Assembly (NCBI GenBank): GCA_903863885.1
Contig: CAIPEB010000193.1
Location: 1-64,000 of the forward strand
Reading direction: 5' to 3'
Source of the DNA: an uncultured Planctomycetaceae bacterium
GTDB taxonomy: Bacteria > Planctomycetota > Planctomycetia > Pirellulales > Pirellulaceae
DNA length: 64,000 bases
Position 1 is the first letter of the stretch. Each line of letters starts with the position of its first letter. The notes beneath the pieces were generated by a model. That model made no database searches, was not told where the DNA came from, and saw only the letters and a program-made list of their open reading frames with translations. The position numbers and the translations under genes are program-made. Below are positions 4,382-59,197 of the stretch, piece after piece.

Positions 4382-5356
4382 TTAATTCCGCGAGGCTTGC
4401 AGGAACTCCTCGTAGATCGCGACGACGGCCTCGTCGGAGAGCTTCGGGCGGATGACGAGTCGAGTCTTGGCCTTGACCGTCTCGCCCTCCCGGAGGTCTT
4501 TCCCGAACAGCGAGAAGTAAACCGAGCGATGCGTCTCTTCCCCGAAGGGCATGGCGATCGCAAAGCAATCGGCGGGGCGTGCCATCAGCACGGCGGTCAA
4601 TCCGGTTTCTTCGTCGCGCCGCACCGCGCAGGCCCCGGCCAGTTCCGGCCGGATCGTCCAATCCACGGGATTGGGTGGTCGCTTCCAGCGCCCATCCTGG
4701 ATCATGGCCACGGCACCGGCGTCGCGAGGGTACATGTGCCATACCGCATCGCTTTGCTTTGCCTCGTCAAAACGCGGTTTGCTCCCGTCTTTCACCATCG
4801 CGAACGAGCGGGCGAAACCGTCGAAGTAGGAGGCAAGAAACACTTCGAATCGTTTCAGTTCCCGTCCGGCGCGGATGCCCGTTTCAAGGTCGAGCGTATC
4901 GGCCGCCGTGAATCGGTAGACGGCATGCATGTCGAACGGATGCACGTCGTCGCGAGTCCACGACACCTCCACGGCGCCGTTCGGTGTCAGCGAGGCTGAA
5001 CTGTTCCAGTCCCAGCCCGCAGGTCCGTACCGGTTGGCGTCATCCAGTAATCGGTAGTGGGAAAAGAGTCCGAGGCTCTTTGCGAGGCTCTTGCCGGTGG
5101 CCACGTGCGACGCGGGCAGCAATCCGCGGGATTTGCCTTCGCCGCGCAGCACGCCTTTGAGATCACCGGTGTCGAACGAGAAAGCACTGCCATCCGGTTG
5201 GAACGCCAGCTTTCCCGCTGCTTCGCCGCCGATTGCCGAGGAAGCGAGTGAGGCGGCGCAGGCGGCCAGCATGGGTGTTGCCGCGCCCAGCGCCACACGT
5301 TCGAGAAACCCGCGCCGCGTTGTGCGCTCGGAATCGCGCGTCGAATGCTCGGACAT
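4382..5356 (-). CDS. Tat-exported protein of unknown function
   Basis: A 324-residue protein with a twin-arginine signal (TTRRGFLERVALGAA, residues 12-26) and an Ala-rich hydrophobic stretch, so it should be exported folded. The mature part is predicted rich in beta strands, with aromatic motifs (LFSHYRLLDD, LASYFDGFARSF) and a basic C-terminus. I do not recognise the family with confidence; an all-beta sandwich of the kind found in carbohydrate-associated planctomycete proteins is plausible. The start is set by an ideal GGAGGT ribosome-binding site (5365-5370 on the opposite strand) 8 nt from the ATG, which excludes longer in-frame readings. It is transcribed divergently from the hydrolase at 5544. 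Confidence 0.75.
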   Translation of the reverse strand: MSEHSTRDSERTTRRGFLERVALGAATPMLAACAASLASSAIGGEAAGKLAFQPDGSAFSFDTGDLKGVLRGEGKSRGLLPASHVATGKSLAKSLGLFSHYRLLDDANRYGPAGWDWNSSASLTPNGAVEVSWTRDDVHPFDMHAVYRFTAADTLDLETGIRAGRELKRFEVFLASYFDGFARSFAMVKDGSKPRFDEAKQSDAVWHMYPRDAGAVAMIQDGRWKRPPNPVDWTIRPELAGACAVRRDEETGLTAVLMARPADCFAIAMPFGEETHRSVYFSLFGKDLREGETVKAKTRLVIRPKLSDEAVVAIYEEFLQASRN

Positions 5357-5543
5357 GGAAGTGCACCTCCGGAGTTGCAGATCAGGAATAACACTTACAC
5401 AAATCGCCGACCGAGTGCAGTCCGACATGGTCAGACCGGCTCGCCGCAGTACAATGTCGTGCCTGCCCATTGTTCCGCGCAAGACGCCGCTTTGCGATAA
5501 CCCAACCTGTGGATATTGCCCCAACCCGTGGATTAAGACTGGA

Positions 5544-6629
5544 ATGCCAGAGATTGACTGTGGTGCCGAAGATCGGCCAGGCGACGACGGAGTGTCCCGA
5601 ACTGACGCGTTGAGTGCCGGTTGCGCCGACGCGAATCACCCGATCGAGGAGGCGACTGACGTCCATCCGCGGTACAAGCCTCAGAAGGGGCCGTTCACCT
5701 GGATGACGATCGATTGCCTGACATTGCGCGACGAATCTCGGGGTAAAGACCTGCCGTTGCGCGTTTCGTTTCCCGCCGAAGACGGCGTATTTCCCGTCAT
5801 TCTGTTTTCACACGGCGCGAGCGGCTCCAAGGACGCGTACCGGCCACTGATCAAACACTGGGTGTCGCACGGATACATCTGCATCCAGCCGACGCACAGC
5901 GACTCGCTGATGCTGCTGCCGCGCGAGGAGCGTCGCAAGTACGCGTCGCTGATCGCCTATATCTCGAGTCCTTACGTACGCGAGCAATGGCTGTCGCGAG
6001 CCGAGGACATTCGATTCGTAATCGACAGGCTTGCCGATGTGGCCGCCGCGTCGGGACTTTGCGATCGACTCGATGCGTCGCGGATCGGCATGGGGGGGCA
6101 TTCGTTCGGATCGCAGACTTCGCAGCTGATCGCGGGCATGTCGCTGCAACTGCCGGATCGCACCGGTCGTTTCGCGATTGCGGATCCGCGGCCGATCGCG
6201 TTCGTCATGCTCAGTCCGCAAGGGATGGGCGGCACGATTGACGAGCATTCGTGGGCCGGCATGACGCGACCGGTCATGATGGCAACCGGATCGCACGACA
6301 ATTCGAGCAAAGGCCTGCCGTACACCTGGCGGCTCGAGGCGTTTGCACGTGTGCCTGCTCACGACAAGTATCTGCTCATGATTGAAGGCGGCCATCACGA
6401 TTTCGGCGGCATCAGCGGCGCCCGATATTCTTGGGCCGGTCCCCACAATCATAAGCACGTCGAATGGGTAAACGCGGCTACCGTCGCATTCTGGGATGCA
6501 CAGCTGAAAGACGATGCGGGCGCATCCGATTTCCTGCGTTCGGGACGCATGCTGCGCGCCAGTCACGGCGCGGCCGAAATCCGTTCGCCGCGAAGAGACG
6601 ATCCGCTGCGGCCCGATTCGGGCGGGTGA
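5544..6629 (+). CDS. Alpha/beta hydrolase, PAF-acetylhydrolase/chlorophyllase-like
   Basis: About 361 residues. A FPVILFSHGASGS strand and oxyanion region (about 83-95) is followed by GGHSFGSQT with nucleophile Ser187, a later ATGSHDN segment that can supply the acid, and GGHHDF for the catalytic His. This is the order and spacing of the dienelactone/PAF-acetylhydrolase type of esterase. No clear signal peptide is seen with this start. The open frame continues upstream of 5544 across the divergent promoter region, and several upstream ATGs are possible (for example 5427), so the N-terminus is uncertain. Homology-like sequence starts near residue 52. The substrate is unknown. Confidence 0.8.
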   Translation: MPEIDCGAEDRPGDDGVSRTDALSAGCADANHPIEEATDVHPRYKPQKGPFTWMTIDCLTLRDESRGKDLPLRVSFPAEDGVFPVILFSHGASGSKDAYRPLIKHWVSHGYICIQPTHSDSLMLLPREERRKYASLIAYISSPYVREQWLSRAEDIRFVIDRLADVAAASGLCDRLDASRIGMGGHSFGSQTSQLIAGMSLQLPDRTGRFAIADPRPIAFVMLSPQGMGGTIDEHSWAGMTRPVMMATGSHDNSSKGLPYTWRLEAFARVPAHDKYLLMIEGGHHDFGGISGARYSWAGPHNHKHVEWVNAATVAFWDAQLKDDAGASDFLRSGRMLRASHGAAEIRSPRRDDPLRPDSGG

Positions 6630-6687
6630 AATCGGCGGGCGGATTGCCCCGTGTCACTCGCGCTGCATTGCAGCGTGCTGTGCCCTC

Positions 6688-7446
6688 TCACTTTTCGCGG
6701 ATCACCCGCAACAGGTTGAACGGCACGTAGTACTTGGCGTAGCGGTGGCCATCGGAATACAACTGTCCCTCTTCGTCGCGCACGAGAACGGTGGCCCGCT
6801 TCGTGACGCGATTCACAATTCCCTGATACTCGCGGCCGTCGACCCGGAACCGGACTTTCGCGCCGCGGTGGACTTGGAATTGGACAAAAGCGCGTTCCTT
6901 GGGAGTGATCAACTGGTGCGTGGATTCGGTGTGGCCGAAGAAACGCCGCGCGATCGAGCGGAATCGAGGCGCCGAACAACTGGAGGAGGACCAGACCAGA
7001 TTCTCGATCAGGTGCACCAGTTCATGTTCCATGATGCGCTGCAGCGCTTCCAGCCGATCGTGACAGACGTGGCCGCACGAGGAGATCGTCCGATGCGAAT
7101 CGTCGGCAAATGCCTGGAAAAGCAGCGTCGATGCCACCGCGATCTCGTATTTCGTCGTTCCGTGTCCGCCGCGCGGCGTGAATCTCACCGTGTGTCCGCC
7201 GGCCGATGTCATGCGGCGCGAAATGCGGAACCTCAGCGGGCTGTTGCCCAGCGCGGCTCGCATCTCTCCCTCGAAAAAGGACTGGTCGTACAGATCGAAC
7301 AGCAACTGAAGATCGCTGGAGTGGATGCGCGTGAAGTTGCCGGTCTTGAGGTAGGGTGATCTCGCCAGCGCGAGCCGGTGGATGCGAGCGACTCGCTCGC
7401 GAATCTCCTCGAGACTGAACCGGCCGCTTTCGATCAGCTGCTTCAT
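6688..7446 (-). CDS. SprT-like zinc metallopeptidase-fold protein
   Basis: A 252-residue protein with a MEHELVHLIE motif (zinc-binding HExxH at residues 141-145). It follows a region with FxLYDxxFF and the Arg/Gly-rich strand pattern seen in SprT/Spartan-like peptidases. The C-terminus (about 190-252) contains a small beta-domain (GAKVRFRVDGREYQGIVNRV). The start at 7446 lies 26 nt after the stop of the upstream DUF4838 gene, so the two are probably co-transcribed. A physiological substrate cannot be inferred. It converges with the hydrolase at 5544; the 58-nt gap contains a small CGCTGC-ATT-GCAGCG hairpin at 6661-6675. Confidence 0.78.
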   Translation of the reverse strand: MKQLIESGRFSLEEIRERVARIHRLALARSPYLKTGNFTRIHSSDLQLLFDLYDQSFFEGEMRAALGNSPLRFRISRRMTSAGGHTVRFTPRGGHGTTKYEIAVASTLLFQAFADDSHRTISSCGHVCHDRLEALQRIMEHELVHLIENLVWSSSSCSAPRFRSIARRFFGHTESTHQLITPKERAFVQFQVHRGAKVRFRVDGREYQGIVNRVTKRATVLVRDEEGQLYSDGHRYAKYYVPFNLLRVIREK

Positions 7447-7472
7447 CGCTTTCGTCGTTCGCGTGCCTCGGG

Positions 7473-8510
7473 TCAGGCACCGACCAGCCCTGCGCCGTAT
7501 TCGTTCAAGAAATCCAATTCCCCGAACCGCTTTCGGTAATCGGCGTCGATCCAGACGGCAAAACTCGTGATATGACGTATGCCGCGGGCGCGGTAGGCCG
7601 CCACATCGGACCGGAACACTTCGCGATTCCACGGCAGCTTCACCGCAGGGAGTTTCCAACCCGAGAAACGCGAGACATCCAGCCAGTACTCGAGTACCTG
7701 AGCGTCATCTTTGGAGAACACCTCGAGGTTCGCATCAAGCGCCTCGATGCGATCGACGTCCGCGGGGGCCTGCTGTTGCGTGTAGGCCACGTCGTATTTC
7801 CGATGGATCGGGGCAAACTCGAGAAACACTCCCTTGTCCGGCTTGACCTTGCGAGGCGCCTGCATCGTGTTGTCGTAGGCGAGGTGGGCGAGCTTCGCAT
7901 CCGGCGCGTCTCGCCGCAATGCGCGGAGAATGGAATTAGAGATCAGCAGCGACTGCTCGGAGGGCGACAATTCGCTGCATTTCGGGCACGAACACCACGG
8001 CAGTCCGTCGTCTCCCCAGTAAAAATATCGCCCCGTCGTGGGACGCAGATCGCGCGCCATGCTCGCAGCATTGGAGGCGATGATGTCGAGGGCCGATTGC
8101 GAATGAACGCAGCAGTTCGCATCGGGCAGTCGCTGGCCCTTGTCATCCATGCGGAAAAGCTGCGGGTCTTTTTCGAACAGCGACCGGGGCAGCAGTTCGC
8201 GCATCGCGTGCAGTTCGTACTCGACAGCGACGCGCGCCGTCCGGCACGCTTCGAGGAAGCGCTGCCCCGGGTCGGTCCGGATCCACTCCGCCACGGCTTT
8301 CGGCGAGTTCGGATGGTGGATGCCGATTGTGGTGAGCCCAGCCGCGGCGACCCGCGCGGGCCAGTCGGCCAGCGTGAGATCTCCCGGCACCAGCACGACT
8401 CCGCGAGTCAGCAGCGCCGCCTCGCGATCGGCGCCGGATGCCGCACCGATCGCGGCCAGTCCGGCTCCGGCAAATGTCGCGAGAAAACGGCGACGATTCC
8501 AGGGTTCCAC
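7473..8510 (-). CDS. Tat-exported DUF4838-type glycoside-hydrolase-like protein
   Basis: About 345 residues. A twin-arginine signal (NRRRFLATFAGAG) is followed by a TIM-barrel-like sequence with TTIGIHHPNSP, a WGDDGLPWCSCPKCSELS segment typical of DUF4838 proteins, and LAYDNTMQAPRKVKP. DUF4838 domains occur in putative polysaccharide-degrading enzymes; activity is unproven. Two starts are possible. GTG at 8510 has a GGGAG ribosome-binding site. TTG at 8552 overlaps the stop of the upstream thioredoxin-like gene. I prefer 8510 because it puts the Arg motif at the usual distance from the N-terminus. It sits in a minus-strand run with the TlpA-like lipoprotein and the SprT-like gene. Confidence 0.72.
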   Translation of the reverse strand: MEPWNRRRFLATFAGAGLAAIGAASGADREAALLTRGVVLVPGDLTLADWPARVAAAGLTTIGIHHPNSPKAVAEWIRTDPGQRFLEACRTARVAVEYELHAMRELLPRSLFEKDPQLFRMDDKGQRLPDANCCVHSQSALDIIASNAASMARDLRPTTGRYFYWGDDGLPWCSCPKCSELSPSEQSLLISNSILRALRRDAPDAKLAHLAYDNTMQAPRKVKPDKGVFLEFAPIHRKYDVAYTQQQAPADVDRIEALDANLEVFSKDDAQVLEYWLDVSRFSGWKLPAVKLPWNREVFRSDVAAYRARGIRHITSFAVWIDADYRKRFGELDFLNEYGAGLVGA

Positions 8511-9700: not shown

Positions 9701-10069
9701 GGGCAACTTCCTGTTGGCGCGAGAGTCGATTTTCGAAATAGGTAAAAACGGAATGCGGGCGATCCCGCAGTTGTGGCTTATACGACAAAACCCGGAATCC
9801 GGTGTCGATCAAATATTCATCTGTCGAGCTGCCGGCATTGGGCATCCGGCATCGGCATCTTCATCTTGCGCGGTGTAGCCCCATCAGGTTAACTCTGTGA
9901 CGTTAACCGCCAGGATGTCTGTTTTTTGGGCAACGTCCATCGACCAACGGGAGCGGGCTATTTAATCGGTGCGGTAGCACCGCTCTGGCTGGCGGTCCTA
10001 CCGCCCTGCGGTAGTCTACGCGGGGGCACGCGGCAGAACAAGCTCGAGGCAAATCGCCGCTGAAGGCTT
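9701..10069. other. Gene-free interval with tandem hairpins
   Basis: This 369-nt stretch shows no convincing gene. Positions 9967-10005 hold two adjacent small hairpins, CGGTGC-GGTA-GCACCG and GGCGGT-CCT-ACCGCC, near the 3' end of the RND gene and able to act as its terminator. The stretch near 9785-9865 contains degenerate CCGGAATCCGG / GGCATCCGGCATC units that resemble the repeat islands elsewhere in the window. The promoter of the TlpA-like gene should also be here. Confidence 0.5.
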
Positions 10070-26404: not shown

Positions 26405-27268
26405 ATGTTCCGTAGCTCTGCAATTGCTTTTTGCGCTGCGGCCGTTGTCGCATGCTGGGGGCCGGCCGCGGAGCAGGATGCCAAGCCGGCGGGAGGCCAT
26501 CCGATATATGGTCTGTGCATGGAAATGCACGACGCAAAGCAGCGTTCGATGGAAGAGCAGGCCGTTATGCTGCACGAATTGGGCTTTGACGGCGCGGGAT
26601 ATCCGCTCTGGATGGATGAGAACCTGGAAAAGAACCTCGCCGTGCTCGACAAGGAGGGGCTGAAGGTCTTTCTGCTGTACGCGACGATCAACCTCGACCA
26701 GTCTCCGGCATTTGACCCGCGGCTGCCGGACGCGATGCGAAAGCTGCGCGGACGGCCCGTGACGATCTGTGTGTTGTTGAGGGGCTTTCCCCCGGGGGAT
26801 GAGCGAGGCATGGAGCCGGCCGTGAAGGTGCTGCGGAGCCTTGGGGATCTTGCCCGCGAGAACGGGCTGCGGATCTCAATCTATCACCATACCGGGGATT
26901 GGACGGACAGCATCCTGTTCGCGCTCAAGGTTGTGAAGCAGGTGGACCACGCCCAGGTTGGCGTGAACTTCAACCTCTGCCATTGGCTGATGGTGGATGG
27001 AGGCAAAGACTATGAACCGGTGTTGCGTGACAACGTCGCGAAGGTCTTTGCCGTGACCATCAACGGCGCGCAAGTCGGAACAAAAACCTGGACCGACGGT
27101 CTGATCCAGCCCCTGGACAAGGGCGACTTCGACAATCAGCGACTGCTGAAGTTCCTCGACGGCGTCGGCTATCGGGGACCGATCGGAATCATGTGCTACG
27201 GCATACCCGGCGATGCGCGCGAGCATCTCGAGAGATCGGTGCGCGTGTGGCGGTCGTGGAAAGAATAG
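26405..27268 (+). CDS. Secreted sugar phosphate isomerase/epimerase-like TIM barrel
   Basis: A 287-residue protein with a signal peptide (about 1-22) and a xylose-isomerase-like TIM barrel (AP-endonuclease-2 type). Visible motifs are IYGLCMEMHD, LGFDGAGYPLW, ISIYHHTGDW, VGVNFNLCHWL and the final YRGPIGIMCYGI, where His, Asp and Glu residues typically bind a divalent metal. Members isomerise or epimerise sugars and inositols; the substrate is not deducible. It lies 176 nt after the MocA gene, followed by a repeat island before the SDR gene. The downstream SDR-aldolase run suggests a place in sugar or polyol degradation. Confidence 0.78.
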   Translation: MFRSSAIAFCAAAVVACWGPAAEQDAKPAGGHPIYGLCMEMHDAKQRSMEEQAVMLHELGFDGAGYPLWMDENLEKNLAVLDKEGLKVFLLYATINLDQSPAFDPRLPDAMRKLRGRPVTICVLLRGFPPGDERGMEPAVKVLRSLGDLARENGLRISIYHHTGDWTDSILFALKVVKQVDHAQVGVNFNLCHWLMVDGGKDYEPVLRDNVAKVFAVTINGAQVGTKTWTDGLIQPLDKGDFDNQRLLKFLDGVGYRGPIGIMCYGIPGDAREHLERSVRVWRSWKE

Positions 27269-27285
27269 ACGCGCGAGGGGAACGC

Positions 27286-27396
27286 GGATGCCGGATGCCG
27301 GTAGTCGGTAGTCGGAAAGATATTCGACTTCCTCCGGACTCCAGACTCCGGACTCCAGACTCCAGACTCCAGACTCCAGACTCCAGACTCCGGACT
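27286..27396. repeat. Composite heptamer repeat island A
   Basis: It begins with tandem GATGCCG and GTAGTCG units (27286-27315), then a short spacer and nine consecutive heptamers of the form CCRGACT (27334-27396, CCGGACT or CCAGACT). The island lies between two genes and encodes only low-complexity peptides. Confidence 0.85.
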
Positions 27397-41764: not shown

Positions 41765-42946
41765 TCAGGCCAATGGGCGCTTCAACTCACGAATAGTCCA
41801 GCGCGCAAGCACTTCGGGGTTCACATGTACGCCCGATCCGGGGCTCTCAAGCGCCGGCGCACGGCCGCCGTATGCGAACGTGATGTCCTCGTTGGTCAGC
41901 AATTCCCGCAATACGTGCCGATCGTATGAGCCTTCGAGGTAACGGATGTTACTCACGCTGGTCGCCCAATGTCGTCCGGCAGCCGAGAGGATGCCCGTTT
42001 CTCCGGGGTGGCATCCGAGTTGATAACCCAGTCCGTGTGCCGAGGCCTCGGCGGCAAGACGCAGGCTGTTGAGAAAACCGCCGCACTTCGACAGGCGGAT
42101 GTTGAATAGATCGCAGGCACGCACTGCAGTCGCGCGTTGCGCGTCGGCCATGCTGGTCAAGGACTCGTCCAGCATGATCGGAACTGCGAGCCGTGTCCGG
42201 ACCTCGGCCAGGGAATCAAGCTCCGCGTGCGGCACCGGCTGTTCCAGGCAACTGATGCGGTAACGGAGCAGCGGCTCGACTGCAGCGGCCAACTTGTCCG
42301 CGTGCCAGGACTCATTGGCATCAATTCGAATATCGACGCGGCTGCCCAGGCAGAGCCGGATTCGCCGCAGGCGTCTCGCGTCGTCGGCCCCTGCGAGGCC
42401 GACCTTGACCTTGCACTGTTGGAAACCGTAGCAGCGCATCTTGAGCGCGCTGCGGCATTCCGCGAAAGCGCTCTCGGCCGTGATGGTTGTGGAATAACGC
42501 ACTTCGCGGCGTTCGTGACTGATGGAACGCGCCGGCGGAAAGTGACGGGTCACTGTGGAGATGGGCTCAGCGAACAAGCGTCCGTACGCATCAAGAATGG
42601 CCAACTCCACCGCGCAGCGAAGCGAGTTGCTGCGGCAGCCGCGCGGATCGTCGCAAGGGACGGATGGTTGAAATGCCCCGCAAAGTTCGATCACTTCACT
42701 CCAGCGTGTCGGCGACGCGCACAACTGGCGCTCAAGAGGTGTTTGACCGAACTGATCCAGCGCGCCTTCCGGGGTCTCGCCGGTCACATAATCCCGCGGC
42801 ACGCCTTCGCCCCAGCCTTCGATCCCGTTGGCCAAGCGGCAGCGAACGAGAAGGTTGGTGCTTTCGCACCGAGTCGCGGAGGCATGTCGGATGACGCGCC
42901 GCAGAGGAACTCGCACGATGTAACAGGTCAGTTCGGCGATCCGCAT
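41765..42946 (-). CDS. Enolase-superfamily enzyme (muconate-lactonizing/dipeptide epimerase/OSBS type)
   Basis: A 393-residue protein with the N-terminal capping domain (MRIAELTCYIVRVPLRRVIRHA) and a barrel carrying CKVKVG (catalytic Lys), IDANESW (Asp), LEQPVPH (Glu), MLDESLTS (Asp) and RLSKCGGF (second Lys). The metal site and both lysines of the MLE subgroup are therefore intact. Members catalyse proton abstraction next to a carboxylate: cycloisomerisation, dehydration, or amino-acid/dipeptide epimerisation. Epimerisation of an N-acyl or dipeptide substrate would fit a pathway with a GH3 amide synthetase, but this is inference. Its start codon overlaps the 3' end of the upstream SDR gene by 19 nt, so translation is coupled. 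Confidence 0.85.
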   Translation of the reverse strand: MRIAELTCYIVRVPLRRVIRHASATRCESTNLLVRCRLANGIEGWGEGVPRDYVTGETPEGALDQFGQTPLERQLCASPTRWSEVIELCGAFQPSVPCDDPRGCRSNSLRCAVELAILDAYGRLFAEPISTVTRHFPPARSISHERREVRYSTTITAESAFAECRSALKMRCYGFQQCKVKVGLAGADDARRLRRIRLCLGSRVDIRIDANESWHADKLAAAVEPLLRYRISCLEQPVPHAELDSLAEVRTRLAVPIMLDESLTSMADAQRATAVRACDLFNIRLSKCGGFLNSLRLAAEASAHGLGYQLGCHPGETGILSAAGRHWATSVSNIRYLEGSYDRHVLRELLTNEDITFAYGGRAPALESPGSGVHVNPEVLARWTIRELKRPLA

Positions 42947-43965
42947 GGCGATCCGATCAAACGCGGTGTCTGCATTTTGCCCGTCGCCCAGTCGAGCGCG
43001 TCGCGCATTCCGGGTTGGAAATCCACCGTTCCGCGATATCCCAGCTGCCGCTTGGCCTTGGCAATGGAAAAGTCGAGGTTCAACGCCATGAACTTGATTG
43101 TCGCGCGGGTCAGCAGCGGCGGTTGCTCGCTGCCTTTCAGCCTGGCATAACCTTCAATGAACGGTACTGCAACCCTTGCCAGCCAGAGCGGAACACGGCC
43201 AGGCCGCGGTTTGCCGAGATACTCAGCCACCGCCATCAGGTATTCTTCGCGCGTCACGAGACGGTCGTCTCGAATGTTGTAAACCTGACCGACAGCCTCG
43301 TCCCTGTCGATTGCGAGAAACACCGCGTCGACGAAGTTGCCGACGTATACGTTGTTCAACAGTGATTTTCCGTCGCCGATGAATTTCACCATGCCGGACT
43401 CGAATCGCTGCAGCAAACGCGGAATCACGTGCCGTTCGCCGGGGCCGTAGATGAAGCCCGGCCTGAGAATCACGGCCGGCAGTTTGCACTCATCAATGTG
43501 ATGCCGGACCACCACCTCGGCTTCCGCCTTGGTCCGGGTATATCCGTCGAGTCCCGTAAGACTCGGGGACACTGTCTCATCCGTTCCGTAGTGATTCCGG
43601 GCGGGATAGACGCCCAATGTACTGACCTGGATCCAGCGCTCGACCGCGGCTGCTCGCTCGGCGGCAGCCAGGAAATGCTCGAGCGCAACGACATTTATTG
43701 CCCTGTACTTTTCTGCGGGTCCCCAGTCGCCGATGTGCGCCGCCGAATGCACCACGATCTGTACGTCCTGCAGCAGTTTCGGAAAACAGGCGTGATCGGA
43801 AAGGTCGCCGTCGACGTACTCGATATCGAGTCCGGCGAGCAGCGTGCGGTCCGCGCCGGCCCGTACGAGAGCACGCACCTTGTAACCGCGCTCAAGTGCG
43901 CGTCGCGCGACAAAACTGCCGACCATTCCCGTCGCGCCGGTAACCAGCATTCGCCTGTTTGCCAT
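42928..43965 (-). CDS. NAD(P)-dependent epimerase/3beta-HSD-like SDR (OleD-like)
   Basis: A 345-residue extended SDR: TGATGMVG (10-17), VVHSAAHIGDWGPAEKYRAINV (about 71-92), the catalytic Tyr142-TRTK146, and LRPGFIYGPGERHVIPRLL. The HSAAxxGxWG and INV patterns recall the 3beta-hydroxysteroid dehydrogenase/OleD branch, which reduces or oxidises beta-keto or beta-hydroxy groups of acyl or sterol substrates. That fits tailoring of a polyketide or fatty acyl product, though sugar-nucleotide epimerases share the fold. The ATG at 43965 (MANRRMLVTG) is preferred over the in-frame start 18 nt upstream. Its stop overlaps the enolase-superfamily gene. Confidence 0.85.
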   Translation of the reverse strand: MANRRMLVTGATGMVGSFVARRALERGYKVRALVRAGADRTLLAGLDIEYVDGDLSDHACFPKLLQDVQIVVHSAAHIGDWGPAEKYRAINVVALEHFLAAAERAAAVERWIQVSTLGVYPARNHYGTDETVSPSLTGLDGYTRTKAEAEVVVRHHIDECKLPAVILRPGFIYGPGERHVIPRLLQRFESGMVKFIGDGKSLLNNVYVGNFVDAVFLAIDRDEAVGQVYNIRDDRLVTREEYLMAVAEYLGKPRPGRVPLWLARVAVPFIEGYARLKGSEQPPLLTRATIKFMALNLDFSIAKAKRQLGYRGTVDFQPGMRDALDWATGKMQTPRLIGSPCGSPN

Positions 43966-44322
43966 GAACCGCTCCGCAGACAACGAGGTAGCAATTGTGG
44001 TCTCAGTGTATCAGTTGTCCGCCGCCGTCGGGATGGGTTCTCATGTGCCGTACGGCCCGCATTGAATGAGGGCACGGACGTCCGGGAGCGGAGAGCGAAT
44101 CGATCCGCGTTTCATCCGTGAAAATCCGTGGCCTCTTTTCCTCCGAATGCTCCGTGGCTCGTACGAAAGAATCCGGAGTCCGGAGAAAGACAAACAACGA
44201 TCCCGCTGCCGCCGCTTCCGGCGATCGCATTTTCATCGGGCGTGGTGTATCGCCAACATCTCAACTCCGATGTTGTTGTTTCGCACTGCCGGGTAAATTT
44301 CTGGCACAACCCCGCCGGCCTC
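43966..44322. other. Gene-free interval holding repeat copy A
   Basis: No gene is supported in these 357 nt. It carries the first copy of the direct repeat (44097-44269), the likely promoter of the OleD-like operon, and the 3' trailer of the DUF2442 gene. Confidence 0.5.
44097..44269. repeat. Direct repeat copy A flanking DUF4160/DUF2442 cassette
   Basis: A 173-nt sequence starting GAATCGATCC and ending CATCTCAACTCCG. It is near-identical to 45084-45247 in the same orientation; the main difference is a 9-nt insertion (GCCGCTTCC) in this copy and scattered substitutions. It contains TCATCCGTGAAAATCCGTGG and TCATCGGGCGTGGTG blocks. Confidence 0.9.
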
Positions 44323-44607
44323 TCAGACCAATTCGACCCCAGCGTCCATTTCGGAAATCGCTTTGCCTGTGGCCTCGGAGTAAAGCACGTCCGGGCAGAA
44401 GTCAACGCCATTCGGCCATACGATCGTGCCGGCCTCCCGGTCGACCGTGACTTGCGAAAAGACGCCGATGTCTTCCAGAGGAGCGAAAACACCTCCCCGC
44501 CCGAGAATCCGGTGACGGAAATCCAGATCGGATACGGTGCCGTCCGTGAACGTCAATTCGAGTCTGTAGTCAGTAACGTGGCGAACACGAGTGATGCGGG
44601 GGAACAT
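44323..44607 (-). CDS. DUF2442-family small protein
   Basis: A 94-residue protein: RITRVRHVTDYRLELTFTDG at the start, DLDFRH, and GTIVWPNGVDFCPDVLY near the end, which is the DUF2442 signature. DUF2442 genes often directly follow DUF4160 genes and the pair has been suggested to behave like a toxin-antitoxin module; the biochemistry is not settled. Here it starts 12 nt after the DUF4160 stop and both are bracketed by direct repeats. Confidence 0.88.
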   Translation of the reverse strand: MFPRITRVRHVTDYRLELTFTDGTVSDLDFRHRILGRGGVFAPLEDIGVFSQVTVDREAGTIVWPNGVDFCPDVLYSEATGKAISEMDAGVELV

Positions 44608-44619
44608 GCCGCTGTGCTC

Positions 44620-44880
44620 CTAATTGAGAGGCGCGATGCGATTCGGAGGTTGATTGCTTCGCATCAACTCCCAGTTGGCCAACAGTTCCTGTTGATGTGC
44701 AGTTGCCCATTCGATAACCATGCCCAACGCACGTCGGGACATCCGACCGCGCAATAGGCTGATCTTCTCGATATCCAGTTCCGCCTCCGCGTCATTGTAG
44801 ATCGCATGGAAATGCGGCGGATTGTGGTCGTCGAAGTACATTCGAATGGAAATACCGAAAAACCTGCTCACCTCTGGCAT
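44620..44880 (-). CDS. DUF4160-family small protein
   Basis: An 86-residue protein with MPEVSRFFGISIRMYFDDHN, then PPHFHAIYNDAEAELDI and WATAHQQELLANWELMR, all characteristic of DUF4160. The frame stays open for 100 codons upstream into the repeat, but the family starts at this ATG. It forms a two-gene unit with the DUF2442 gene. Molecular role unknown; a toxin-antitoxin-like role is a hypothesis based on gene pairing. Confidence 0.88.
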   Translation of the reverse strand: MPEVSRFFGISIRMYFDDHNPPHFHAIYNDAEAELDIEKISLLRGRMSRRALGMVIEWATAHQQELLANWELMRSNQPPNRIAPLN

Positions 44881-45267
44881 GGTTTTTTCCACAGACACCC
44901 AGTGAATGTGACGAGGACTGACACGACGTGTCTGCCAACGCCCGATCCGGCGCTTGCTCAAGAATTGATTATATTCGTACTCGCCGATTCGTGTGCGACG
45001 AAGATGGACCGTTGCGACTTTCAGGCCAACGTCGAGTATGAAGCGGCAGGACCAGAAGTGCTGCTGGGCAAGGTATGCAGGATGAATCGATCCGTGCTTC
45101 ATCCGTGAAAATCCGTGGCCTCTTTTCCTCCGAATGCTCCGTGGTTCGTACGAAAGAATCTGGCGTTCGGAGAAAGACAAACACCAATCCCGCTGCCGGC
45201 GATCGCATTTTCATCGGGCGTGGTGTGTCGCCAACATCTCAACTCCGTGATTGTCTCTCCGCCTTGA
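44881..45267. other. Gene-free interval holding repeat copy B
   Basis: This 387-nt stretch holds the second direct repeat copy (45084-45247) and about 200 nt of unassigned sequence upstream of the DUF4160 gene, presumably its promoter. The open frames here are extensions or repeat-derived and were not accepted. Confidence 0.5.
45084..45247. repeat. Direct repeat copy B flanking DUF4160/DUF2442 cassette
   Basis: A 164-nt copy of 44097-44269 in direct orientation, lacking the 9-nt insertion. With copy A it encloses 814 nt (44270-45083) containing both small genes. It lies 20 nt beyond the stop of the GH3 gene, inside what would otherwise be one long minus-strand operon. Confidence 0.9.
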
Positions 45268-46962
45268 TTACAGCGAATCGCTGGTTGTCGTGCCGTCCGT
45301 TGAATCCAGCGTCGAAAGTCGCTCGGCGAACTGCAGGTCATTGACGAGGCACGGGTGTTTGTACTCTTCCAGGTTGCCGCGCCGGGAGATGCGACCCGCG
45401 CGGAAGCGATCCCAGGCGCCCTCGGGGATTTCGATCAGGGACAAGGGTTCAAGCCTGCGAGACCGGACCTTGTCGGCATACTCGCAGTTCAATTGCCGGA
45501 GTTGCGAATCGACGAATCGCAGGAGATCCGCTGCCCGCCCTTTCTCGATTCCCGCTTCCAGCAGAAGCACATAGCCCGGGCGGTCACCCTCGACTCGCGG
45601 AGCGATCGTGAAGGTCTCGATCCGCATGCCGAGTTCCGAAAAGCCGGCCTGCACGGCCGAGACAACCTGGAATTCGCTGAGTTTCTCGCCGGTGAGACTC
45701 GAGAAGTGCGCTCCCTTGCTCAGGAATCGCAGGACAGGGACCTGTCCCTCAAACGCCTCGCACCGCACGAGATCGTGAATGTTGTAGCGGTAGAGACCGG
45801 CGGACGTCGTGAGCAGGATGAAGTAATTCCGCCCTTCCTGAAGTTCGTGCGCTTCGAGCACGGTGGGGTTCGGGCGGTCGATCTCCTCCTCGGGGATGAA
45901 CTCGTAGTAATGGTGCACGTAGTCGAGGATTCCGCTGCTCGTTCCGTCTTCGAGCGGGATTGTCATGCGACCCTCGCTCGCGGACAGACCGTGATCCCTC
46001 AGCGCCGTATCGCCAAAGTATTCACCCAGCCGCGGCAGATAGACGCCGACGGATCCTCCCATCCAGACGGCCAACAGCGACAGATCCGGCCATGCGTAAC
46101 GCGGGTACAGCATCCCGTGCTGGTCGATAATCCGTTCAAGTTCGTTTGCCCTTCGCGGATTGCGCCGCCGAATCCGCGGCTCGAGTGAGGCACGGATCGC
46201 TGCGGGCAGTTCAGCGCCGGTCAGGGTTCCGTCGTGGATATCGCGGATCAACGACTCTCGTTGACGATCTGCTCGCCGTGCGAACTCGATCAGCGTGCTC
46301 GGATTGGCGGTGATGATCATGCCGACGTTCGGCTCGGCGAGGGTCAGCCGCAGCGCCGCGTAGTGCTTTGCTGCCGGATCGTCGATGCGCACGACCTCGC
46401 GCGGCAGGACAAATACGCGGCGCGTTACCGCGGGAGCCGCCTCTGCGGCCAGCCCGCTGATATTGCCGCATGGGATTCCGCTCTCGGTCACGAGTTGGCG
46501 CCAGTTGCTGGTCAGCTGCAGCGTCTTCTTGTGGATCTGATCGACATGGCCGTGGTAGTTCGCCGCGCCCCAGACGTGCCAGCTGCGCCGATACTCGGCG
46601 AAGAACTGACTTGTTACCGGAATGAACTTGGGGCGATTCGTCGTGCCCGATGTCATGGCGAACATCAGTACGCGAGTGCCCGGGCCGAACATCGCGCCGA
46701 GGTCGCCGCGTTTGACGCTTTCGATGTACTCGCGGTAATACTCGTAGTCGGTGATGGGGACCCGGCGCCGGAAATCGTCGAGGGTTCGTATTTCGGAAAA
46801 GGCGTGGTCTCTGCCGAAGCGGCTGTCGGCATTGCGGCCCAACTTCTCAAACAGCCGTTCTCGCTGGACCTCACGCGATCGATGGGTTTCGCGCAGGAAC
46901 GCGCCTACCTTCCGATAGTAGATCGGTATCGCGGCCCGGTAGATCAGGGATTCAATGCTCAC
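45268..46962 (-). CDS. GH3-family acyl-adenylating amide synthetase
   Basis: A 564-residue GH3 (auxin-responsive promoter) family protein. The ATP motif AMTSGTTNRPKFIPV (about 102-116), YPRYAWPDLSLLAVWMGG, SASEGRMTIP and FILLTTSAGLYRYNIHDLVR follow the GH3 order. Plant GH3 enzymes adenylate a carboxylic acid hormone and couple it to an amino acid; bacterial members are less well characterised. The start is a GTG at 46962 that overlaps the stop of the ketopantoate-reductase-like gene (GTGA). An annotation starting further upstream in this frame would be wrong. Coupling to a PKS with a thioesterase suggests it activates the released acid and forms an amide or ester. Confidence 0.88.
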   Translation of the reverse strand: MSIESLIYRAAIPIYYRKVGAFLRETHRSREVQRERLFEKLGRNADSRFGRDHAFSEIRTLDDFRRRVPITDYEYYREYIESVKRGDLGAMFGPGTRVLMFAMTSGTTNRPKFIPVTSQFFAEYRRSWHVWGAANYHGHVDQIHKKTLQLTSNWRQLVTESGIPCGNISGLAAEAAPAVTRRVFVLPREVVRIDDPAAKHYAALRLTLAEPNVGMIITANPSTLIEFARRADRQRESLIRDIHDGTLTGAELPAAIRASLEPRIRRRNPRRANELERIIDQHGMLYPRYAWPDLSLLAVWMGGSVGVYLPRLGEYFGDTALRDHGLSASEGRMTIPLEDGTSSGILDYVHHYYEFIPEEEIDRPNPTVLEAHELQEGRNYFILLTTSAGLYRYNIHDLVRCEAFEGQVPVLRFLSKGAHFSSLTGEKLSEFQVVSAVQAGFSELGMRIETFTIAPRVEGDRPGYVLLLEAGIEKGRAADLLRFVDSQLRQLNCEYADKVRSRRLEPLSLIEIPEGAWDRFRAGRISRRGNLEEYKHPCLVNDLQFAERLSTLDSTDGTTTSDSL

Positions 46963-57830: not shown

Positions 57831-57907
57831 GGAGTCGGGAGTCTGAAGTCCGGAGTCTGGAGTCCGGAGGAAGGCAAGCATCCGTCCGACTACCGACTAC
57901 CGGCATC
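57831..57907. repeat. Composite heptamer repeat island B
   Basis: Five degenerate GGAGTCY-type heptamers (57831-57867), a spacer, then CCGACTACCGACTACCGGCATC (57886-57907, described in pieces: GACTACC twice, then GGCATC). Read on the minus strand it has the same order as island A at 27286-27396: GGTAGTC units, AT-containing spacer, CTTCCTCCGGACTCC. Confidence 0.8.
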
Positions 57908-57937
57908 TGCCCCCGCCCCGGCATGTCAACTTCGTGA

Positions 57938-59197
57938 TCAATCGCAGGTGGAGGCATCGAACTGCATGGTGCGGATTGATTCCACCGCGCTCTGGTGCAG
58001 CGAGTAATTGTCAACCGTGGTCGAAACGAGCCACTGCGCTGCGCGAGGCCGCGCCAGCAGCAGCAACGCGACGCCGGCGGCCGGGAAGAAACTCCGCCAG
58101 TCCTTCCGGACGTTCGTCAGTTCGTCTTCGCTGTTCTCGTACAACCCAGAACCTCGCCAGGATCTCAGCAGTTCGGCGACGAGTTGCCTTCGGCTGCACC
58201 CGTTCAGCGCCATGGCCATCAGGATGAGGAAGCCCTGATGAGTCTTCACGCCTTCGCGTGCATCCGCTGCCGGCAATACGGGGCGGCCCAGGGAAACCTG
58301 CACCAGCAATTCGCACAGGTTCACGCCGCTGAGCAAGGCGCTGCCCGTTTCTCCGATTCTCGGGTTGCATTCGATCAGTTGCAGGCTGCCCGTCTGGGGA
58401 TCGCGGAAGTACTCGATGCACATCGCGCCATGCCAGGCCAGATGTGCGCCGATGTGCCGCATCTGTTCGACCGCCGCATCGTCCAGCACGCTGATCTTGG
58501 CCATGGATGAGCCGCCGACGCCCGTGGCGCGGGATTCAACGCACTGTGCGCCGACAAGCACACCCTCCTGGAAGATCCCGGTTACGCCCCGTTTGACGCC
58601 GGTCGCGAGTGTCTGCACGAGTATCTCGCGATCATCGCCGACCCAGCCTGCACGATCAAAATCATCCACTGCCTTGCAGAGTTCGCTTGCGCTGTTGACC
58701 AGCCGGACGCCCTCGCCAGCCGTACTGTAAGGAACCTTCACGTAAAAGGGAAACTCGTTGCGGACCAGCAAGTCGCTTCGTCCGTGCACGATTTCGGTGC
58801 GCGGTTGCGGCAGGTTCAATTCATCCAGCAGTCGCGAGAACCTGGCTTTGCTCATCAGGCGATCCATCGACTCGAACGACGGCAGCGCCAGAGCCGTGTG
58901 CTGCTTCAGCTCATCGCGGAATCGGGACAGCAGGAACACCTGTTCATGCGTCGGAAGCAGCACGTCGTACGGTTCCGATCGCAATCGATCGACGAGGAAC
59001 GAGAGGTAAGCGGCGGGTTCGCGCGAGTAGCAGGGACAATTGTAGCGGCGGCGCACGAACCTCGAAAATCGGCCCTGGCAGAACGGCGACGGGTCGAGCA
59101 GGTCGAGCGTGTGCCGGGGGCCGAGCGAGAAAATCGCCTGGCGCGCCGACGTGCTCGAGCCTTCGGTCAACAGGATCTTCAGCGGTGCTGCCGTCAC
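57938..59197 (-). CDS. ATP-grasp ligase
   Basis: A 419-residue ATP-grasp enzyme of the carbamoyl-phosphate-synthase-like or carboxylate-amine ligase group. Features: an N-terminal pre-ATP fold (MTAAPLKILLTEGSSTSARQ), PFYVKVPYSTAGEGVRLV (ATP-binding Lys and Gly-rich loop, about 150-170), and IECNPRIGETG (Mg-binding Glu and Asn, about 271-281). It would phosphorylate a carboxylate and couple it to an amine or thiol; the substrates are unknown. It has a GTG start with a GAGGGGTG ribosome-binding site inside the end of the upstream dehydrogenase gene (3-nt gap), so it is the last gene of that operon. Repeat island B follows its 3' end. Confidence 0.85.
   Translation of the reverse strand: MTAAPLKILLTEGSSTSARQAIFSLGPRHTLDLLDPSPFCQGRFSRFVRRRYNCPCYSREPAAYLSFLVDRLRSEPYDVLLPTHEQVFLLSRFRDELKQHTALALPSFESMDRLMSKARFSRLLDELNLPQPRTEIVHGRSDLLVRNEFPFYVKVPYSTAGEGVRLVNSASELCKAVDDFDRAGWVGDDREILVQTLATGVKRGVTGIFQEGVLVGAQCVESRATGVGGSSMAKISVLDDAAVEQMRHIGAHLAWHGAMCIEYFRDPQTGSLQLIECNPRIGETGSALLSGVNLCELLVQVSLGRPVLPAADAREGVKTHQGFLILMAMALNGCSRRQLVAELLRSWRGSGLYENSEDELTNVRKDWRSFFPAAGVALLLLARPRAAQWLVSTTVDNYSLHQSAVESIRTMQFDASTCD

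Follow-up and report, generated by a model that had tools for sequence, protein, structure and literature searches.

A predicted dhiTA-type toxin-antitoxin gene pair between direct repeats inside a biosynthetic operon of an uncultured planctomycete

Introduction

Adjacent genes for DUF4160 and DUF2442 proteins make up the dhiTA type of toxin-antitoxin (TA) system. Growth of Dickeya dadantii and of E. coli is inhibited when the DUF4160 toxin is overproduced but not when toxin and antitoxin are produced together, and the dhiTA operon is repressed by its own products (PMC8198452). The DUF4160/DUF2442 pair makes Thermus plasmids more stable, and no transformants were obtained with a vector that lacked DUF2442 (PMC12724237). 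That DUF2442 neutralises DUF4160 has been demonstrated in Dickeya (PMC8198452), and for Thermus it is suggested (PMC12724237).

For TA genes in general, mobility is presented as clear and fixation as not understood, and the spread through chromosomes of TA genes that have no transposase of their own is an unsettled question (PMC2654758). Two kinds of carriage offer points of comparison. Tn3-family transposons carry TA passenger genes (PMC7157771), and the insertion of restriction-modification genes, which likewise are addiction units, is described in two papers as duplicating the target over a long, variable stretch on the order of 100 bp (PMC3874152, PMC3031569). Here, we describe a DUF4160/DUF2442 pair enclosed by direct repeats in a stretch of 64,000 nucleotides (the window) from an uncultured Planctomycetaceae bacterium, and compare it with these systems. 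The TA type is a known one, and its setting here is uncommon.

The gene pair and the operon around it

The features of the locus are collected in Table 1. Reading from the GH3-family gene, its stop is followed by 13 nt, R2, the TA pair, R1, and the OleD-like gene, and the TA genes and the surrounding operon all lie on the minus strand. A sequence-only reading of this DNA had proposed that near-identical direct repeats enclose these two small genes and nothing else, and a Pfam scan agrees, since DUF4160 and DUF2442 are the only open reading frames (ORFs) between R1 and R2 with Pfam matches. The two genes are adjacent, toxin first, 12 nt apart, and both pass the Pfam cut-offs. The longest DUF4160 ORF (186 aa) extends into R2; the start was placed at 44880 by alignment with same-family relatives in two genomes (G040 and G021), whose DUF4160/DUF2442 proteins share 62-68% amino-acid identity with those of the window and lie in other surroundings. 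The 203-nt leader is probably the promoter region of the cassette and had no strong match elsewhere in a 401-kb sample of the window genome; the 131-nt spacer on the OleD-like side likewise had no other match in that sample.

Table 1. Features of the DUF4160/DUF2442 locus and further copies of the dispersed repeat in the window
Feature	Coordinates	Strand	Remarks
OleD-like NAD-dependent epimerase / 3-beta-HSD family gene	42928..43965	-	PF01370, PF01073; downstream operon neighbour; start 43965
Whole insertion	43966..45267	.	1302 nt, OleD-like start to GH3 stop, relative to two other genera
Unique spacer, R1 to OleD-like start	43966..44096	.	131 nt
Repeat copy R1 (OleD-like side)	44097..44276	+	modules 1, 2, 3
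DUF2442 protein, dhiTA-type antitoxin (predicted)	44323..44607	-	PF10387, E 3e-15; 94 aa; alignment with relatives
DUF4160 protein, dhiTA-type toxin (predicted)	44620..44880	-	PF13711, E 6.9e-22; 86 aa from conserved start
Cassette leader, R2 to toxin gene	44881..45083	-	203 nt
Repeat copy R2 (GH3 side)	45084..45254	+	module order as R1, one 9-nt gap
GH3-family gene	45268..46900	-	PF03321, PF23571, PF23572; upstream operon neighbour; stop 45268; start approximate, listed ORF extends to 47880
Copy of modules 2-3	9757..9904	+	nhmmer; the window's only DUF4160 is not beside it
Partial copy, heptamer module	27253..27368	-	nhmmer
Partial copy, modules 2-3	57833..57941	+	nhmmer

The addiction-type character suggested by the sequence-only reading finds a specific counterpart in dhiTA (PMC8198452 and PMC12724237), and by analogy with the Dickeya and Thermus studies the window pair is predicted to function as a TA system of this type. 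A search for PADLOC models found none, and two DUF4160/DUF2442 queries gave no match in complete E. coli genomes, where polymorphic insertions were sought. The neighbours scanned by Pfam (epimerase, enolase-like, GH3, ApbA, and hydrolase) include no transposase, integrase, or resolvase, so that the absence of a transposase, as first remarked, holds among these genes and extends to integrases.

Empty sites in two other genera

The neighbour genes were searched in 199 same-family genomes at the DNA level and in 241 at the protein level. An OleD match at E <= 1e-70 was present in 17 other genomes, and in only two of these, G083 and G594, did GH3 lie within the fetched 1.5-kb flank. Both belong to other genera and are distant relatives, with OleD-like proteins at 67-72% amino-acid identity. 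In these, the GH3 and OleD-like genes are adjacent and overlap by 11 nt and 4 nt, respectively, with neither a repeat copy nor the gene pair at the junction, in keeping with the earlier view that the block intrudes into an otherwise continuous run. Since the two genes overlap in the relatives and are separated by the whole block in the window, the block with both repeats reads as an insertion, or else as a deletion in both genera; relative to the genera of these two relatives it is, on gene order, an insertion. Consistent with insertion are also the sole DUF4160 copy in the window genome (DUF2442 has four), the other surroundings of its relatives, and the low GC content of the TA genes (55.7%, against 62.0 +/- 2.2% (sd) for 558-nt windows, the second lowest of 254).

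The sequence-only reading had asked whether relatives show an empty site with a single repeat copy; the empty site was found, and the single copy was not there. Among the genomes searched, no relative had the GH3/OleD site with one repeat copy and no TA pair, and none had the TA pair at this site without repeats.

The flanking repeats and their dispersed family

R1 and R2 lie on the same strand as direct repeats and enclose about 810 nt. Alignment of 44097-44270 with 45084-45248 gives 155 identities, 10 mismatches, and one 9-nt gap, or 93.9% of aligned positions (155/165). A chance origin was rejected; allowing at most three mismatches, the window holds two instances of the 23-nt repeat core, where 100 shuffles gave an expectation of 0.00. 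The 401-kb sample, which had been picked as rich in the repeat, contains no direct pair besides R1/R2 that reaches 100 nt and 80% identity at a spacing of 0.2-4 kb. Each copy consists of three modules, the first of ATCCGTG iterons with a 10-bp period, the second beginning CTCGTACG and continuing with GGAGTCC-type heptamers, and the third ending CAACTCCG. Because a profile search of the 401 kb found no other copy with modules 1, 2, and 3 in this order, R1 and R2 most likely share descent, one from the other; because they differ by 6%, the event is old and secondary change likely.

Short motifs that recur between genes across the window genome are combined in the repeat as a mosaic. The core ATCCGTGNNNATCCGTGGC, allowing at most one mismatch, occurs at 251 sites in this 11-Mb genome (none for the reversed control) and, unevenly, in 70 of 199 family genomes, a set in which the reversed control gave a few matches; the repeat family counts 34 in G083, 35 in G095, and 22 in G066. 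Of the 134 partial matches that an nhmmer profile search gave in the 401 kb, three lie at other places in the window (Table 1). Short copies occur in both orientations, and some form close divergent pairs. The mosaic repeats of the window genome contain 10-bp iterons ATCCGTGNNN, the heptamers GGAGTCC, CCGACTA, and CCGGCAT, and the end module CAACTCCG. The boundaries of R1 and R2 coincide with ends of dispersed modules (GAAT... and ...CAACTCCG).

Set against a single DUF4160 and four DUF2442 genes, the 251 cores do not bear out the proposal that the dispersed repeat is the general boundary of the cassette. With so many cores and one DUF4160 gene, the repeat is not tied to these genes in any general way; the genome-wide search suggested with that proposal found the repeat widespread, an outcome that the sequence-only reading had itself named as a refutation. 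In 80 DUF4160 loci from named genomes of many phyla, the core flanked the pair on both sides in none and on one side only in two. No related paper appeared among the matches listed when the repeat letters were searched in the literature, and literature searches, with matches judged from their listings, found no published description of the mosaic repeat.

Two further arrangements of the core were observed. In contig C474 of the window genome (3773-4279), a PDDEXK_3 (GxxExxY) gene, one of three in the genome, lies between two oppositely oriented cores. In contig C147 of G095 (4562-8270), six direct ATTCGTGTTCATCCGTGG copies stand 641-926 nt apart and belong to long, nearly identical tandem units that contain runs of heptamers (aagaact, ctacgcc); a cassette role for these arrays was rejected, as the stretch read contains no obvious gene.

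Bracketing of toxin-antitoxin loci elsewhere

A locus counted as bracketed when a direct repeat measuring 40 nt or more had its two copies on opposite sides of the pair, each within 1.5 kb. Of the 80 named-genome DUF4160 loci, the 72 with at least 1 kb on both sides were used, and 12 of these chromosomal loci were bracketed (16/80 in a looser first count). When the assumed position was moved by at least 1.4 kb in the same loci, 0-5% appeared bracketed; smaller offsets gave 7-15% because the windows overlap. Within the phylum of the window, after loci with less than 1 kb on a side had been dropped, bracketing was seen in 11/29 HicA loci (29 of 30 used), 4/30 ParE loci (30 of 30 used), 2/24 loci of a second DUF4160 set (24 of 29 used), and 1/25 cold-shock (CSD) genes (25 of 30 used), the one CSD match (L320) coming from a genome with several neighbouring CSD genes on the same contig; in the family of the window, the OleD-like gene was bracketed in 0/16 (16 of 19 used). 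All loci were best-scoring rather than random, and the named set includes some groups of related species more than once (several Lachnospiraceae); on this basis the 29/155 bracketed TA loci differ from 1/41 non-toxin loci with Fisher p = 0.005. By set, p was 0.0001 for HicA, 0.018 for named-genome DUF4160, and 0.10 for ParE; the effect is strong for HicA and moderate for DUF4160, and ParE alone is not clearly above the controls. Two of the Lachnospiraceae loci (L193 and L200) have, by our own reading, a second DUF4160-like ORF upstream, and the repeat of L198 is similar; these three may not be target duplications.

Outside the window genome, the bracketing sequences are quite different from R1/R2, and bracketing therefore tracks the TA pair rather than this particular repeat. 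At eight of the 29 bracketed TA loci, the repeat includes the stop codon of an adjacent intact gene or comes within 11 nt of that codon: thyX (L263, 88 nt), genes for an NTP transferase (L285, 53 nt), an atpC-like protein (L260, 70 nt), and a radical SAM protein (L288, 64 nt), rpsI with the hairpin-and-T stretch that follows it (L189, 84 nt), two sigma-54 activator genes (L151, 215 nt; L160, 49 nt), and an AraC-type gene (L173, 496 nt at 97%). For L263, L285, L189, and L173, the partial copy is 3' of the TA genes, either right beside the stop codon of the last one or up to a few hundred nt from it. Arrays also occur. In contig C102 of G259 (528-2609; L259), HicA and other toxin-like ORFs are interleaved with four copies of a C-terminal end, ...KHYGFTDEELDFIINYDIKYRMGQ..., and no integrase was noticed in the 3 kb; at L145, three copies surround a VapC-like ORF and a DUF4160 pair. 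The labels RelE-like and VapC-like for ORFs at these two loci are our own readings, and the identity of the KHYGFTDEELDFIINYDIKYRMG end was sought in solved structures, where none was found. Insert sizes are TA-like, mostly 443-1500 nt, and the window shares the plan of these bracketed loci.

Plasmids presented a different picture. Of 72,556 plasmid records, 37 had a DUF4160/DUF2442 match, and none of the DUF4160 loci in 16 regions taken from these matches was bracketed. At six plasmid loci (L349-L353 and L357), from Legionella, Pseudomonas syringae, Piscirickettsia, and Acidithiobacillus hosts, the pair lies beside Tn3 transposase, other transposase, and/or recombinase genes.

Origin of the bracketed cassette

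The reading that we place first, at about even odds, is that a horizontally acquired dhiTA-type cassette settled between overlapping genes of the GH3/OleD-like operon and that local sequence was duplicated as it did so. The TA cassette would have integrated between the GH3 and OleD-like genes, and integration would have duplicated about 170 bp of local intergenic sequence, which would have produced the second repeat copy; the repeat would thus be duplicated target and no part of the mobile unit. Addiction would then retain the cassette, because its loss by recombination between the direct repeats would free the stable toxin. The insertion, its TA-only content, its atypical composition, and its bracketing are observations, whereas duplication on integration, including its mechanism, is what we infer from them. 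Bracketing was weak in the second DUF4160 set, absent on plasmids, and not clearly above the controls for ParE alone, all of which speak against this reading. We do not call the GH3/OleD locus a proven target duplication, because the empty sites carry no repeat copy rather than one and because the repeat boundaries coincide with module ends, which plain target duplication does not predict.

That coincidence is fitted at least as well by homologous recombination, which we regard as possible and hold tentatively. A circle or fragment carrying the TA genes next to a dispersed repeat would have entered by recombination with a repeat already present between GH3 and OleD, and a repeat would then stand at either side of the TA genes, so that the dispersed repeat would act as a homology arm, close to what the sequence-only reading had in mind. 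The 251 cores provide hundreds of homologous places in the genome, G083, G095, and G066 could be donors as bearers of the repeat family, and the gene-3'-end copies that alternate with different TA genes at L259 and L145 are as repeated integration by homology would give. The genome of the window, however, shows no second DUF4160 beside a repeat, no second locus with the full composite was found, most repeat copies bracket nothing comparable, and the core is not found on both sides of any of the 80 DUF4160 pairs.

A composite-transposon-like unit, in which the two repeats and the TA genes would travel together through an enzyme that acts in trans on the repeat ends, is unlikely. The defined repeat ends would suit such a unit, as would the short copies in both orientations with their divergent pairs, which recall REP/BIME elements. 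Yet the 401 kb of repeat-rich sequence holds no other block of this plan, the repeats form no strong hairpin (z -1.2 and -2.1), and no mobilising enzyme was identified in a search whose scope did not take in RAYT-type transposases. Still less probable is an ancestral gene pair beside which repeats inserted later on either side by chance: the modules are indeed common intergenic elements, but R1 and R2, 94% identical, share an arrangement seen nowhere else searched, two relatives have no pair at the site, and the base composition of the TA genes is atypical. An integron gene cassette with the repeats as attC sites, already disfavoured, is highly improbable, for although TA genes between 60-180 nt repeats recall super-integron cassettes, R1 and R2 contain on either strand neither of the attC consensus boxes, RYYYAAC and GTTRRRY, fold weakly, and have no integrase among the neighbours scanned.

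Implications

Under the duplication reading, the similar bracketing in other bacteria suggests a simple way for selfish TA pairs to settle in chromosomes. A wider generalisation, which we offer as speculative and rather doubtful, is that chromosomal TA modules commonly travel as bare cassettes with a copy of adjoining sequence, either a gene 3' end or a dispersed repeat, and integrate at homology, the window being the dispersed-repeat case. If so, L259 and L145 would be integrase-free, integron-like arrays in which gene-end copies are interleaved with different TA pairs.

If TA cassettes leave long local duplications, their insertions could be mapped from single genomes, insertion without breaking a neighbour gene would be explained by duplication of its 3' end, and the mobility of restriction-modification and TA genes would become one testable question. 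Searches of the open-access literature listed restriction-modification papers, reviews, and unrelated papers, and among these no account of TA pairs enclosed by duplicated gene ends.

Comparison with known systems

Among dispersed intergenic repeats, REP/BIME elements and cyanobacterial STRR heptamers are short, many-copy, and present in both orientations, with heptamer and decamer periodicity. The window repeat has these same properties, but unlike them it is not palindromic singly and is a mosaic of three modules. With super-integron TA cassettes the locus has in common TA genes between short direct repeats, without attC boxes, an integrase, or strong hairpin folding in the window. Restriction-modification gene insertion with long target duplication was reportedly described by Nobusato et al. 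in 2000 and by Furuta et al. in 2010.

Relative to the TA passengers of Tn3-family transposons, the pair adjoins Tn3 transposase or recombinase genes on some plasmids, whereas neither transposase nor resolvase was seen at the window locus. With dhiTA and the Thermus plasmid module (PMC8198452, PMC12724237), the window pair shares the two domains, the toxin-first order, the size, and the close spacing; it differs in being chromosomal, inside a biosynthetic operon, and bracketed by repeats, and its activity is a prediction.

The restriction-modification insertions differ from the window in three respects: the pair here is a TA pair, the bracketing sequence is a composite of dispersed repeats rather than ordinary unique target sequence, and the empty sites seen carry no copy. 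Long direct repeats do stand at both ends of the inserted addiction unit, as R1 and R2. Because the repeat is built of dispersed modules, the locus is not filed as a proven member of this class, which it resembles in its working; as in the long-target-duplication insertions described in PMC3874152 and PMC3031569, an addiction pair without its own transposase is found between direct repeats of around 100 bp, variable in sequence, at a site that is empty in relatives.
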